Source: Ignatzschineria sp. RMDPL8A (GTDB lineage Bacteria > Pseudomonadota > Gammaproteobacteria > Cardiobacteriales > Wohlfahrtiimonadaceae). From it: DNA of 64,000 bases. The stretch covers positions 1,736,001 to 1,800,000 of the forward strand of contig NZ_JAPPWA010000002.1 of the NCBI RefSeq assembly GCF_029815055.1, written 5' to 3'. A model generated the notes under the pieces. The model did no database searches, had not been told where the DNA came from, and saw nothing but the letters and a program-made list of their open reading frames with translations. How positions within the stretch are numbered: the first letter of the stretch is position 1; each line of letters begins with the position of its first letter. The translations under genes were made by a program, and so were the position numbers. This document shows, one piece after another, positions 28,599-35,217 of this stretch.

Positions 28599-29090
28599 TT
28601 ATGCCCAGTGAATGTGCGTCACTTTTTCCGCAAGATCCACGAGCGACCACTCATCACGATAATCATCGGGATCCCACTCATCATTAAAACTGCCATCTTC
28701 TTCAGAAAGCGGGATGCCTTGGTTAACGAGCACTGTTTCATTCGCTTCCTGCCATTTACGCATGAGCGAGCCATCTTGGTGATATTCAAATAAGAGTTCA
28801 CCGCTTAACAGGTGGCTCTTAATCATAAAAAGATCCCCTTTTGCCGAGAGTTTTGAGAGCGCCGCTTCAAGCTCACCATCAAAAAACTTCTGCTCAAGAA
28901 GGTGTGGATCGATTAAAAAATAGTGCCATTCGCCGTAATGCCCGAGGATCATCGGTTTAAATTCCAAAAATCCAAATGGAACGCAATCCCCTTGCACGAA
29001 ATGAAATTCTTTACCATTAAAGTGCTCGCGCGCCCAATCAAACAGCGCATAACTACAGTCACTCTTTAAAAAAATTGCACCGATATCCAT
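28599..29090 (-). CDS. Hypothetical cytoplasmic protein
   Basis: I do not recognise this 163-residue protein. It is acidic, without signal peptide or membrane segment, and rich in aromatic residues (FDWAREHF, GHYGEWHYFLID, DEWDPDDYRDEWS). The start at 29090 gives MDIGAIFLK and has GAGGG six bases upstream; the frame extends further upstream to 29195, but that part looks non-coding. It stands alone between two terminators, one of them at the end of the biotin operon. Confidence 0.55.
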   Translation of the reverse strand: MDIGAIFLKSDCSYALFDWAREHFNGKEFHFVQGDCVPFGFLEFKPMILGHYGEWHYFLIDPHLLEQKFFDGELEAALSKLSAKGDLFMIKSHLLSGELLFEYHQDGSLMRKWQEANETVLVNQGIPLSEEDGSFNDEWDPDDYRDEWSLVDLAEKVTHIHWA

Positions 29091-29225
29091 ATTATTTGCC
29101 CTCGTAATGTTAACGAACTTTATTGTTATAGTCGCAGTGTGACATAGTTTTATGACGCAAATGTTACAGAGAGCAAGATTTAGGATAACAATCAATTTAA
29201 ATGTTAAGTTTTGTAAGAGAACAAA

Positions 29226-29318: not shown

Positions 29319-30008
29319 CTATACGGAATAATGCTCAATTAAGGGCGCGATATTGAGGTTCGTTTCACGAAACTCAGCGCCATGTTTGACCTCACCTAAG
29401 CATGGAATATCAGTAAGCTCGTGGATCGATTCCATATAATCGTGGATATAACAATCATCGCCATCGTGAATATGATTGCCGACCCAGCCTAAAATCGGTA
29501 ACCCTGCCTGTTTCACTGCTTCAAAGGTCAGTAGTGCATGATTAATGCAACCAAGTTTCAAACCGACTACAACCACCACCGGAAAACGGTTTTTAATGAC
29601 CCAATCGGCAAAGGTTCCTTCCTCATTGAGCGGCGTAAACCAACCTCCCGCGCCTTCCACTAAAAGATAGTGAGATTTCGTTAAAAGGTGCTCCGCCCCT
29701 TGCGTCATCACTTTAAATTCGATCGGGCGATTTTCCGCACGACTTAAGAGATGTGGTGCCGTTGCAATCTCAAAAAAGTAAGGGTTCACTTCATCGTACG
29801 TAAGCGCTACATCCGAGTTTGAGGCCTTTAAATGGGCTACGGCATCGGGGTTTTTAAAGCCCATCTCTGTGGCTTCCGCGCCCGATGCGATCGGTTTATA
29901 GCCTACCGTTTGGTACTGGTGCGCATTGAGCGTTTGTAAAATTAATGAGGAGACGTAGGTTTTCCCCACTTCCGTATCGGTTCCGGTAATAAACCAGGCA
30001 TTATTCAT
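29319..30008 (-). CDS. bioD: Dethiobiotin synthase
   Basis: This enzyme closes the ureido ring of dethiobiotin from 7,8-diaminopelargonate, CO2 and ATP. The P-loop is GTDTEVGKT (Lys16 central) at the N-terminus, and LLVEGAGGWFTPL in the middle is the conserved family motif. The 229-residue length is normal. Its ATG overlaps the end of bioC by 8 bases, so translation is probably coupled. It is the last gene of the bioB-bioF-bioC-bioD operon. Confidence 0.95.
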   Translation of the reverse strand: MNNAWFITGTDTEVGKTYVSSLILQTLNAHQYQTVGYKPIASGAEATEMGFKNPDAVAHLKASNSDVALTYDEVNPYFFEIATAPHLLSRAENRPIEFKVMTQGAEHLLTKSHYLLVEGAGGWFTPLNEEGTFADWVIKNRFPVVVVVGLKLGCINHALLTFEAVKQAGLPILGWVGNHIHDGDDCYIHDYMESIHELTDIPCLGEVKHGAEFRETNLNIAPLIEHYSV

Positions 30009-30768
30009 GTCGAATCACTCCTAATACAAGGTGATAAGTTAATGGAAATTTGCCATCTTTTTTAGGATACGCCTCCGATAAGGTTTTGAGGACACTGCGC
30101 CCCATTAAACCTTGTCGGCGTTCGGGTAAAGTGGTTGCTCCAATGTTTTGTAAGCTGCGTAAAACCGAAATACAATCATCAAAATAGAGCGTTTCCGTAA
30201 AGGGAATTAACTCATAAGAGAGCCCTGAAAGCGCCTCATGTACAGCATCCGTTTTAAGAAAATCGAGGGTGTGCTTTCGATCATCGACCGCGCGCCACGC
30301 CTCATCAAGCTCAAATAGTGAATGATCCACAATGGTGGTAAAAAAAGCATAACCGCGCTTTTTCACCACGCGCGTTAATTCCCGCGCTGCCACATCTAAA
30401 TGATGACACCACTGCACCGCAAGATTGCTCACGGAAAAACAGAACGATTCATCCTCAAAGGGAAGCGCTTCGATATCGCCTTTAATATAATGATCGGCCA
30501 CATTTTTCATCCGCGCCGTCTCAAGCATTTCAGACGATAGATCGAGCGCCGTCACGGTTTGATAGTTCGCTTTAAGTTCATGACTTAAAAACCCCGTACC
30601 GCAACCGGCATCTAAAATATGGTGATTGTGCGGGGAAAACATCATCTTTTCAACGAGCGCATCGATTAAGACTCTCCCCACGCGCTGTTGTAATTCAGAG
30701 GCTGAATCATACCGCGTCGCTGCTCGGCCAAACGCCATGGCAACGCTTGATTTATCCACGATAGACAT
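30001..30768 (-). CDS. bioC: Malonyl-ACP O-methyltransferase
   Basis: BioC methylates malonyl-ACP with S-adenosylmethionine, which lets fatty-acid synthesis build the pimeloyl chain of biotin. The SAM-binding motif HILDAGCGTGFLS is near residue 50 and the following strand TALDLSSEML fits. The family start, VDKSSVAMAFGRAATRYD, is present. I chose ATG 30768 (GGAG upstream), overlapping the end of bioF by 17 bases, rather than the TTG at 30795. BioC requires an esterase to remove the methyl group later; none of the named ones (BioH, BioG) is present here. Confidence 0.93.
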   Translation of the reverse strand: MSIVDKSSVAMAFGRAATRYDSASELQQRVGRVLIDALVEKMMFSPHNHHILDAGCGTGFLSHELKANYQTVTALDLSSEMLETARMKNVADHYIKGDIEALPFEDESFCFSVSNLAVQWCHHLDVAARELTRVVKKRGYAFFTTIVDHSLFELDEAWRAVDDRKHTLDFLKTDAVHEALSGLSYELIPFTETLYFDDCISVLRSLQNIGATTLPERRQGLMGRSVLKTLSEAYPKKDGKFPLTYHLVLGVIRHE

Positions 30769-31918
30769 TCGCAAACGTCTCCAGAAGTTGTGCAATATCG
30801 GACTCGGTGTGAGCCGCCGTTAACGTAATGCGTAAACGCGCGCTATTGGGTGGCACTGTGGGCGGGCGGATCGCGGTAATCCAGATCCCCCGCTCTTGTA
30901 GCTTTGTTGCGAGCTGTAGGCTTTCGTCATTTCCGCCAATAATAATGGGCTGAATGGCGCTATCTGAGATCGGCTCGATCCCCATTTTAATGAGCCCCGT
31001 CTTAAATTGATCGATATTTTGGCGCAGTTGTGCTCGACGATCATCCCCTACTTCGATGAGTTTCACAATCTCATGGAGCGTATAGGCTTGCGCCGGCGGA
31101 ATCGCGGTACTGTAGATAAGCGGACGAGAGACTTGCGTAAAATACTCTGCCACCAAATCCGAGCAAAGGAGCGCAGCACCACTTAACCCAAAGGCTTTAC
31201 CAAAGGTAACAATCAAAAGATCGGGCTTAATGCCATGCTTAGCGCAAGTGCCCCGCCCTTTTTCGCCATTGACCCCAATGCCATGAGCATCATCGACCAT
31301 CAGCCAGCTATTATCATGACGAGCCGTTTCATCAAAAATCTCACGGAGCGGCGCTTCATCACCATCCATACTAAAAAGGCCTTCGGTAATGACAAGCGTG
31401 CCCCCATTAAATCCGTCCGGAAGCGCATTCATCCGCTTTTGTAACGAATCGAGATCATTATGATGAAAGCGCGTTAATCGCCCCGGCACCATCATCGACG
31501 CTTCCATTAAAGAGGCATGACTTAATCGATCGGCAACAATGCGATCCTCTTTTTCAATCAAGGCTTTAATCACCGCTTGATTCGCGGTAAAGCCCGATGG
31601 ATAGACAATTGCCCGATCATAGCCAAGCCAAGATGCCAGCTTATTTTCAAGATTCGCGAGCGCTTCATTGTAGCCGGTAATATGCCCCGAGCCTGCGCTA
31701 CCAACGCCATACAGATCGGCGCCCGTTTTCCACGCTTCAACCACCTCCGGCGCTTGACTTAGGCCGAGGTAATCATTGGAGGAAAAATTGAGATAACGCG
31801 CACCATTAATCTCGATCATTCGACCAAGATCGGTGGCTTTAGTCATTTTGCGCTGACGATAGCTATCGCTAGCCGATCGCTCGGCCAGCGTCTCCTTCAT
31901 ACGTTGTGTAAAGTGCAT
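30752..31918 (-). CDS. bioF: 8-amino-7-oxononanoate synthase
   Basis: This PLP enzyme condenses pimeloyl-ACP with L-alanine. The pyridoxal-binding lysine is Lys241 in VTFGKAFGLSG, and the family motifs FSSNDYLGL, VGSAGSGHITGY and VDDAHGIGVNGEKGRG are all visible. The length, 388 residues, is normal. It starts 6 bases after the bioB stop and runs into bioC. Confidence 0.96.
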   Translation of the reverse strand: MHFTQRMKETLAERSASDSYRQRKMTKATDLGRMIEINGARYLNFSSNDYLGLSQAPEVVEAWKTGADLYGVGSAGSGHITGYNEALANLENKLASWLGYDRAIVYPSGFTANQAVIKALIEKEDRIVADRLSHASLMEASMMVPGRLTRFHHNDLDSLQKRMNALPDGFNGGTLVITEGLFSMDGDEAPLREIFDETARHDNSWLMVDDAHGIGVNGEKGRGTCAKHGIKPDLLIVTFGKAFGLSGAALLCSDLVAEYFTQVSRPLIYSTAIPPAQAYTLHEIVKLIEVGDDRRAQLRQNIDQFKTGLIKMGIEPISDSAIQPIIIGGNDESLQLATKLQERGIWITAIRPPTVPPNSARLRITLTAAHTESDIAQLLETFANVYRG

Positions 31919-31924
31919 TGCGGT

Positions 31925-32893
31925 CTATTGAACTGTCTGCATGCGTGGGTTATCAGTTGCAGTTAAATCTAAACGCTCGAAAAGTGCATTATCATCATCT
32001 TTATCGGCATTTGGACTTGTGAGCAATTTTGCCCCGTAGAAAATTGAGTTTGCCCCCGCCATAAAGCAGAGCGCTTGGAGTTCAGGACTCATCGTTTCAC
32101 GGCCTGCTGAGAGGCGTACCATCGATTCAGGCATCATAATACGCGCAACGGCAATGGTACGAATAAAGTCAAAATCATCCACCGGATCATTCTCTCCAAG
32201 CGGCGTTCCTTTAATCGGGATTAAACGATTGATGGGCACGCTTTCTGGCGCTTTATCCATGTTCGCTAATTGCACTAAAAGCGATGCACGGTCTTTGAGT
32301 TCCTCACCAAGGCCAATAATTCCGCCCGAGCAGATCTTCATGCCGGAATTGCGCACGTGATCCAAGGTATCAAGACGGTTTTGATAGGTGTGAGTGGTGA
32401 CGATATCGCCGTAAAATTCAGGCGAGGTATCTAAGTTGTGGTTGTAATAATCAAGGCCTGTATCGGCTAAATCGTCCGCTTGCTCTTTGGTTAAATGGCC
32501 AAGCGTCATACAGGTTTCCATGCCTAAGTTTTTCACTTCAGCAATCATTTTTTTAATGTACGGCATGTCGCGCGCTTTAGGATTACGCCACGCAGCGCCC
32601 ATACAGAATCGCGATGCGCCCTCCTCTTTCGCCACTTTCGCAGCCTCGATCACCTTCTCGACCTCCATCAGCTTCTCAGCTTCGACATCGGTGTCATAAC
32701 GCACACTTTGAGAACAATATTTACAGTCTTCCGAACAGCGGCCAGTCTTGATTGAAAGCAGACGGCTGACCTGAATTTTTGTAGGATCGAAATGTTCGCG
32801 ATGCACTTGTTGCGCTTCGAAAAGCAGCTCAAATAGAGGTTTCTTAAAAAGTGCTAACGCTTGTTCAACGGTCCATTTTATTGTTTTTGTCAT
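31925..32893 (-). CDS. bioB: Biotin synthase
   Basis: This radical-SAM enzyme inserts sulfur into dethiobiotin. The cluster-binding Cys residues are Cys53, Cys57 and Cys60 in [13 protein letters not shown]. Other family segments are [16 protein letters not shown] and the [13 protein letters not shown] motif. The 322-residue length is typical. It is the first gene of the minus-strand bio operon, divergent from bioA across 113 bases. Confidence 0.97.
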
Positions 32894-33006: not shown

Positions 33007-34302
33007 ATGACTAAAATCGATACCTCCTTTGATACACGCCACATTTGGCACCCTTACACCTCCATGAGTGAACCGCTCCCTTGCTATCCTGTTGATTCGG
33101 CAAGCGGTGTGACACTTCATCTGGAAGATGGTCGCACCTTGATTGATGGAATGTCCTCTTGGTGGGCGGCGCTTCATGGCTACAATCACCCCGTATTAAA
33201 CGAGGCGATCAAAAATCAGCTCGATAAAATGAGCCATGTAATGTTTGGTGGCATTACCCATCGCCCAGCGGTGGATCTTTGTAAACGACTGGTCGAGATG
33301 ACGCCCGATCCGCTTGAGTGCGTATTTCTTGCCGACTCGGGTTCGGTCGCGGTTGAAGTCGCGCTTAAAATGGCCTTTCAATATTGGCACGCCAAAGGGG
33401 AAAAACGCCACAAAATCGTGAGCCTTTCCCACGCTTATCACGGCGATACCTTTGGCGCGATGTCGGTCTGTGATCCGAAAAACTCCATGCATAGTATTTA
33501 TGAAGGCTATCTCCCAGAGCATCTATTTGCTCCAACCTTTACCCTTGGATTTGATGATGAGTGGGATGATTCGGCGGTGGATGAGCTCTTCACTTTAGTG
33601 GAAGATAATGCCGATGACATTAGCGCAATTATTGTGGAGCCGATCGTGCAAGGCGCGGGCGGAATGCGCATGTATCACCCCAATTATCTCAAAACAATTC
33701 GGGAACTTTGCGACCACTTTGGCATCTTAATGATCGCCGATGAGATCGCAACGGGCTTTGGCCGCACCGGAAAACTCTTTGCTTGCGAACATGCCGAGAT
33801 TGCCCCCGATATTATGTGCGTTGGTAAAGCGATTACCGGCGGATATATGACTCTATCTGCAACGCTCACCACGCGCCACATCGCCGATACCATCAGTAAT
33901 GGCGAGGCAAAATGCTTTATGCACGGCCCAACCTTTATGGGAAATCCTCTCGCGTGTTCGGTTGCTTTAGCGAGTCTCTCACTGCTTGATAATGGCGCAT
34001 GGGAATCGAACGTTTCCCGCATTGAAGCGCAACTTAAAGAGGAGCTTTTCGTATTAAAAGGCCACGAGGATATTGAAGATGTTCGCGTCCTTGGCGCCAT
34101 TGGCGTGATCGAGCTTAAAACCCCGATTAACCAAGAAAAAATGCAGGCCTACTTTGTTGAAAATGGCGTCTGGATACGCCCCTTTAATAAACTCGTCTAC
34201 ATCATGCCGCCCTATGTGATTAAAGAGGAAGAGCTCCGTCAATTGACCGGTAGTTTAGTTAATCTCTTAAATCGCCCGGACTTTAAGGAGTTTTTAGCAT
34301 AG
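33007..34302 (+). CDS. bioA: Adenosylmethionine-8-amino-7-oxononanoate aminotransferase
   Basis: BioA transaminates 8-amino-7-oxononanoate to 7,8-diaminopelargonate using S-adenosylmethionine as amino donor. It is a class-III PLP aminotransferase: DTRHIWHPYTSM is the BioA-specific start, GMSSWWAALHGYNHP follows, and the PLP lysine is Lys274 in CVGKAITGGY. The 431-residue length is normal. It diverges from bioB, and the next gene starts on the base after its stop codon, so the two are certainly co-translated. Confidence 0.96.
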   Translation: MTKIDTSFDTRHIWHPYTSMSEPLPCYPVDSASGVTLHLEDGRTLIDGMSSWWAALHGYNHPVLNEAIKNQLDKMSHVMFGGITHRPAVDLCKRLVEMTPDPLECVFLADSGSVAVEVALKMAFQYWHAKGEKRHKIVSLSHAYHGDTFGAMSVCDPKNSMHSIYEGYLPEHLFAPTFTLGFDDEWDDSAVDELFTLVEDNADDISAIIVEPIVQGAGGMRMYHPNYLKTIRELCDHFGILMIADEIATGFGRTGKLFACEHAEIAPDIMCVGKAITGGYMTLSATLTTRHIADTISNGEAKCFMHGPTFMGNPLACSVALASLSLLDNGAWESNVSRIEAQLKEELFVLKGHEDIEDVRVLGAIGVIELKTPINQEKMQAYFVENGVWIRPFNKLVYIMPPYVIKEEELRQLTGSLVNLLNRPDFKEFLA

Positions 34303-35157
34303 ATGGCTCAACTACTGATAAATGGCACCATTAAACCCTATCTTGAAATGGGTAGCGCGGATGGCACCCCGCTTCTCTTCTTGCACGGCATTTTAGGCGC
34401 TAAAGAGACGTGGGAGCCAGTGATGGAAACGCTCTGCAACGACGAGGAGTTTAACAACACCCATCATCTTCTCGCCTACTCACTTGCAGGATTTGGCAAA
34501 GAGAATAAAAATACGCCGAAAGAGACGTTTAATACCGCCATTCACGCCGATGAGCTCATCGCCTTTTGCGATGCGCTCTCACTTAGTAAAATTAAGGTAG
34601 TGGCATGGTCCTATGCGTGCCATTCAGTGCTGCTTGCCGCAATCAAGCGTCCCGATCTTTTCAAAACGATCCTCCTTTATGAGTGCATTGTGCCAAGCTA
34701 CGGCCTTGAAAACTCGCGCGATAAAATGAAGGCGTTCACCCGTGACATTACCCGCATGATGGCGCCTTCCATAAAAGCGATTCGTCGCGGCGATCTTCTC
34801 GAGGCGGCCAACCAATTTGCGCTAGCATGCAGTAATAATGAATCTTTTCTTGATTCACAATCCCCGCGCGTGCAGGCGATTAAAGCTGATAATCTCCACA
34901 CATTGCCGCTTCTCTTATCGCAAGAGAATCCCGCGCCGATTACCCCGGACACAATTAAGACCATTTCAGCTAAGATCGGCATTCTCTGGGGTGAAAAATC
35001 CCGCGCGATTTTCAAACTTGCATCAAACGCACTTCAAGGTGCTCTCGATCCTGAGCAGTTAATTAAAGGCTCTGGTGAAATTGCGAACGTTCACCATCTT
35101 CTTCCTGAAGAGAATCCCGAGCAATTTGCCGAGCTGATTAGGCCATTATTGATATAG
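34303..35157 (+). CDS. Alpha/beta hydrolase, candidate pimeloyl-ACP methyl ester esterase
   Basis: The 284-residue protein has the alpha/beta-hydrolase layout: oxyanion segment LLFLHGILGAKETW (residues 24-37), nucleophile elbow AWSYAC with Ser103, and a late His264/His265 (NVHHLLPEE) as the general base. The elbow has Ala where GxSxG proteins have the first Gly, and the usual acid position in the ILWGEKSRA segment has Ser-Arg instead of Asp. It begins directly after the bioA stop. BioC-type biotin synthesis needs an esterase such as BioH, BioG, BioJ or BioK, so the location suggests this one does that job. This role is inferred. Confidence 0.65.
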   Translation: MAQLLINGTIKPYLEMGSADGTPLLFLHGILGAKETWEPVMETLCNDEEFNNTHHLLAYSLAGFGKENKNTPKETFNTAIHADELIAFCDALSLSKIKVVAWSYACHSVLLAAIKRPDLFKTILLYECIVPSYGLENSRDKMKAFTRDITRMMAPSIKAIRRGDLLEAANQFALACSNNESFLDSQSPRVQAIKADNLHTLPLLLSQENPAPITPDTIKTISAKIGILWGEKSRAIFKLASNALQGALDPEQLIKGSGEIANVHHLLPEENPEQFAELIRPLLI

Positions 35158-35189: not shown

Positions 35190-35217
35190 AAACCCCATCG
35201 ATCGTGATGGGGTTTTT
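35190..35217. terminator. Bidirectional terminator after the bioA operon
   Basis: AACCCCATC / GATGGGGTT form a 9-bp perfect stem flanked by an A tract and a T tract, so it can serve the hydrolase gene and the convergent MarR gene. Confidence 0.88.

Follow-up and report, generated by a model that had tools for sequence, protein, structure and literature searches.

The window, by which we mean the whole 64,000-nucleotide stretch of DNA analysed, contains a bio locus whose genes run in two opposing directions. On the forward strand, bioA (33007-34302, named from its sequence and by the preliminary description) lies directly upstream of, and in the same orientation as, an alpha/beta hydrolase gene (34303-35157, 284 amino acids), the proposed pimeloyl-ACP methyl ester esterase with which we are concerned here. 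In the opposite direction, from 32893 to 29319, are bioB (31925-32893, recognised from its sequence, including the radical-SAM motif CSEDCKYC), bioF (30752-31918; TIGR00858, 411.8 bits, slightly below the cut-off of 426), bioC (30001-30795; TIGR02072, 203.3 bits, over the cut-off of 185) and bioD (29319-30008; TIGR00347, 173.7 bits, over the cut-off of 83), all on the reverse strand. Downstream of bioD is a 198-amino-acid open reading frame (28599-29195, reverse strand) that has no Pfam or NCBIfam match. The ATG of the hydrolase begins on the base directly after the bioA TAG (GCA TAG ATG GCT), exactly as the preliminary description had it, and its statement that BioC is encoded nearby is likewise borne out by the bioC score of 203 bits against 185. 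A possible ribosome-binding site for the hydrolase, AAGGAG (34285-34290, forward strand), is located inside the 3' end of bioA. A terminator-like hairpin (35190-35215, reverse strand) lies between the hydrolase and a convergent marR-type gene, though a similar number of such matches is expected by chance.

Judged by curated profile cut-offs, the encoded protein is a member of the alpha/beta hydrolase superfamily, scoring 42.8 bits against Abhydrolase_1 (Pfam cut-off 25.8) and 40.3 bits against Abhydrolase_6 (cut-off 26.3). Against the NCBIfam profiles it falls far below the cut-off of every family; the BioH model TIGR01738 is absent among its matches at E<=1, and there is no match to the BioG model PF04301. 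A reading as a haloalkane dehalogenase was rejected: such enzymes dominate the sequence matches in the structure database, but these matches cover the N-terminal half only and the nucleophile here is Ser; in haloalkane dehalogenases the nucleophile is Asp. With 11 Lys/Arg against 10 Asp/Glu in the lid, net positive lid charge was also dropped as a sign of ACP binding.

The preliminary description had proposed that the genome be searched for bioH and bioG, and this we have done, in 2.18 Mb of sequence on three contigs (99% complete). Neither gene is present above threshold: no protein exceeds the BioH cut-off of 207 (the best hit of the search reached 50.5 bits, and the other alpha/beta hydrolases score at most 62 with that model), and BioG gives no match above threshold. 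Six other proteins are over the Abhydrolase_6 cut-off, and several of the other alpha/beta hydrolases show a weak match to the BioH model (48 to 62 bits), over its full or partial length. The best full-length match among them adjoins a gene for an extradiol-dioxygenase-like protein, a neighbour that suggests a role in aromatic degradation.

We compared 18 genomes of the GTDB family to which the window belongs (Wohlfahrtiimonadaceae) with 14 others of the same order. The hydrolase family is found in 17 of the 18, spread over three genera (g1, g3 and g4), and in 0 of the 14. Three relatives are identified as Ignatzschineria, to which genus g3 would correspond, and g4 is probably Wohlfahrtiimonas. 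Across the order, bioC occurs in exactly those 17 genomes plus two more, G023 and G024, in both of which the hydrolase is absent and bioG is situated between bioF and bioC; all 13 bioC-negative genomes are without the hydrolase. No genome of the order carries a BioH over the cut-off, so that the hydrolase occurs in BioC genomes without other esterase types, as regards BioH and BioG. At the genus level, bioC together with either the hydrolase or a strong bioG is seen in 4 of 4 genera versus 0 of 9 (p about 0.001), but three of the four genera are from one family and are not independent, so the number of independent co-occurrence events is small. The sole family genome without the hydrolase, G001, is 80% complete and is also without detectable bioC and BirA. 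A wider search of the class, covering 369 genomes, recovered no further member of the hydrolase family and one distant homologue only. The hydrolase is a real, constrained gene: all but one of the 18 family genomes keep it, and its dN/dS against a second genome of the window's species is 0.12. Two side observations concern the biotin genes of the order more generally. The BioC proteins of Ignatzschineria are long (319-332 amino acids) and divergent (L003:1624-2622, L004:1903-2880 and L005:2001-2960), all g3 matches being below the TIGR02072 cut-off, and a borderline BioG match (G030:C12:45888-46262, 29.2 bits against a cut-off of 27) occurs in G030, where bioC was not detected.

Linkage of the hydrolase to bio genes takes two forms. 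In g1 and g3 it is just downstream of bioA; a second genome from the window's species retains bioA and the hydrolase side by side, but the DNA that lies downstream of them differs. The g4 hydrolase gene is arranged divergently to bioF-bioC. All six g4 spacers between bioF and the hydrolase contain an inverted repeat, TGTAAAC(C/T)-N15/16-(G/A)GTT(T/A/C)AC, close to the bio operator of E. coli (TGTAAACC-N16-GGTTTACA), which the same scan recovered as a control; these BirA-like operators are equalled by 0 to 2 of 500 mononucleotide shuffles. No significant operator was detected in the window's own bioB-bioA spacer or in the bioF-bioA spacers of Ignatzschineria, and the operator argument therefore holds for g4, not for the window itself. 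The helix-turn-helix domain profile HTH_11 matches both of the g4 BirA proteins scanned (n=2) and was not detected in BirA from g1 (n=1) or g3 (n=2); the g1 protein, the BirA of the window's genome, is at L099:1501-2499 (reverse strand; contig C1 near 129534-130412). That the scanned g1 and g3 proteins have no detectable HTH_11 fits the finding of no significant operator in the window or in Ignatzschineria, and repression by BirA and biotin may have been lost in these two genera. In g4, a conserved open reading frame of about 197 amino acids (MAYDIGxCNEMIK...) follows the hydrolase in the same orientation (L013:2375-2965, L014:786-1376, L015:820-1413 and L017:771-1367).

The active site was analysed in an alignment of 16 family sequences, to which the distant homologues L089, L092-L095 and L096 were added. 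The nucleophile elbow reads V-A-W-S-Y-A-C-H, in accordance with the earlier report of an AWSYAC elbow in place of GxSxG, and its serine, Ser103 (codon 34609-34611), is invariant in the 16 family sequences and the six distant homologues alike. His265 (codon 35095-35097), the proposed base, is also invariant. The preliminary description had further remarked that Asp is lacking at the usual acid position. This much stands, in that the beta7 position (G-E-K-S-R) is occupied by an invariant Ser233 (codon 34999-35001), but the acid itself is not absent: residue 127 (codon 34681-34683), following beta6, is a carboxylate in 16 of 16 sequences, Glu in g1 and g3 and Asp in g4. Five of the distant homologues (L089 and L092-L095) keep the Ser, the beta6 acid and the His and have Thr at the position of Ser233, while the canonical homologue L096 is reversed, with Ser at 127 and Asp at 233. 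By this alignment the acid is present and relocated to beta6, not lost, and we propose a catalytic triad that is, in sequence order, Ser103, Glu/Asp127 and His265. An AlphaFold model built from five sequences is poor (pLDDT 47) and too weak for triad geometry; its rough strands, at that same pLDDT, span residues 97-102, just before Ser103, and 120-126, just before Glu127.

Where might such a protein have come from? The nearest homologues that we found outside the family are plasmid-borne alpha/beta hydrolases of Microvirga and Peteryoungia (L092 and L093), with 35% and 31% identity over nearly the full length. Both have the same Ser, beta6 Glu and His, and no bio genes were detected within 6 kb of either. 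In profile comparisons the hydrolase family matches the distant homologue L089 over its full length (99.6%), against 91 N-terminal columns only for BioH and, with hhalign, 17 columns at a probability of 15.6% for BioG. On account of this difference the family looks to have been recruited from a beta6-acid branch of hydrolases rather than derived from BioH or BioG. It does form a distinct group, as had been suggested earlier. We infer that a general alpha/beta hydrolase branch in which the beta6 acid already existed was probably recruited to the bio locus in Wohlfahrtiimonadaceae.

We consider it very probable that the window hydrolase is a lineage-restricted pimeloyl-ACP methyl ester esterase, comparable to BioJ, BioV and BtsA and outside BioH and BioG. 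In the predicted pathway, malonyl-ACP methylated by BioC would be extended to pimeloyl-ACP methyl ester in two rounds of fatty acid synthesis, and the hydrolase would strip off the methyl group to give pimeloyl-ACP usable by BioF. The catalytic residues would be Ser103, His265 and, where beta6 ends, the carboxylate of residue 127 (Glu or Asp). The preliminary description had assigned an esterase function from location; as a prediction, the assignment gains support from the lack of BioH and BioG, from the tracking of bioC by the hydrolase across the order, from the presence of bioG where the hydrolase is absent, and from the existence of two separate bio-linked arrangements.

An alternative that we regard as unlikely is that the bio-linked hydrolase has another job, and that pimeloyl-ACP methyl ester is demethylated by a general alpha/beta hydrolase encoded away from the bio genes. 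In E. coli, bioH lies apart from the bio operon, and another alpha/beta hydrolase of the window's genome could therefore in principle serve, and the six other Abhydrolase_6 proteins and the weak BioH-model matches of 48 to 62 bits would provide candidates. Promiscuous esterases can complement delta-bioH, EstN1 being an example (PMC6138646). However, no other hydrolase comes near the BioH cut-off, and such a division of labour would leave unexplained the match between hydrolase and bioC, the replacement by bioG, and the divergence of the g4 gene from bioF across a BirA-like operator.

Linkage and operator point to biotin, but not to which step, and it might be argued that the hydrolase serves a different one, for instance by freeing biotin from biocytin or from biotin esters. 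This we hold to be quite improbable, in that a single vacant step of the pathway needs an ester hydrolase, the only bioC genomes of the order without the hydrolase fill that step with bioG, and none of the 13 bioC-negative genomes has the hydrolase, which tends to favour the pimelate branch. The missing beta7 Asp and GxSxG could also be taken to mean that the acid has been lost, the active site is degenerate and the protein is no serine esterase; we give this almost no credence, given the invariance of Ser103 and His265, an acid that is always found at 127, purifying selection, and the fact that ZenA works with an acid at beta6 (PMC10913051).

If the hydrolase does act as predicted, a pathway gap is closed in Ignatzschineria and its relatives, and annotators could replace 'alpha/beta hydrolase' with a family name. 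Bacteria have repeatedly come up with new enzymes for demethylation, and for no other step of the BioC route; an independent solution that places the acid on a different strand would, if true, be further evidence that many hydrolases can fill this step. We found no paper on biotin synthesis in these genera, in literature that was mostly without subscription journals.

A triad acid following beta6 has been proven in the zearalenone lactonase ZenA (S128/D153/H303; PMC10913051), where it comes 25 residues after the Ser. The likeness to our hydrolase is one of triad spacing; ZenA is a lactonase and has a GxSxG elbow. Among the enzymes known for the demethylation step, E. coli BioH resembles the hydrolase in fold, in the Trp just before the nucleophile (GWS in BioH, AWS here) and in the proposed reaction, but TIGR01738 is not matched, and the acid of BioH is on beta7 (an Asp about 28 residues before the His), at the position taken here by Ser233. 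BioG (PF04301) has the AWS motif in common with it and would have the same role in the bioC genomes G023 and G024, yet is different in length and operon position. The closest parallels are BioJ of Francisella, BioV of Helicobacter and BtsA of Moraxella, each a lineage-restricted alpha/beta hydrolase with a Ser-acid-His triad from BioC genomes without BioH; these are experimentally backed esterases, whereas the window hydrolase is a genomic prediction. The published triads are S82/D207/H235 for BioH and S151/D248/H278 for BioJ (PMC9302846), S31/D141/H167 for BioV (PMC4751477), and S117/D254/H287 for BtsA, the last taken from the D254A and H287A mutants, as the abstract prints His254-Asp287 (PMC7026016). 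The Asp thus precedes the His by 26 to 33 residues in BioH, BioJ and the mycobacterial BioH1 and BioH2 (PMC9302846), in BioV (PMC4751477) and in BtsA (PMC7026016), a range from which we excluded the printed triad of BioH3 (S103, D248 and H265; 17 apart). In the hydrolase, by contrast, 24 residues separate the Ser from the proposed acid that follows it, which can be Glu as well as Asp, so that it is set apart from BioJ, BioV and BtsA by published triad spacing. Since the Asp-to-His distance is 26-33 residues in these mapped esterases, a beta6 acid as proposed would give the step a catalytic arrangement of another kind.
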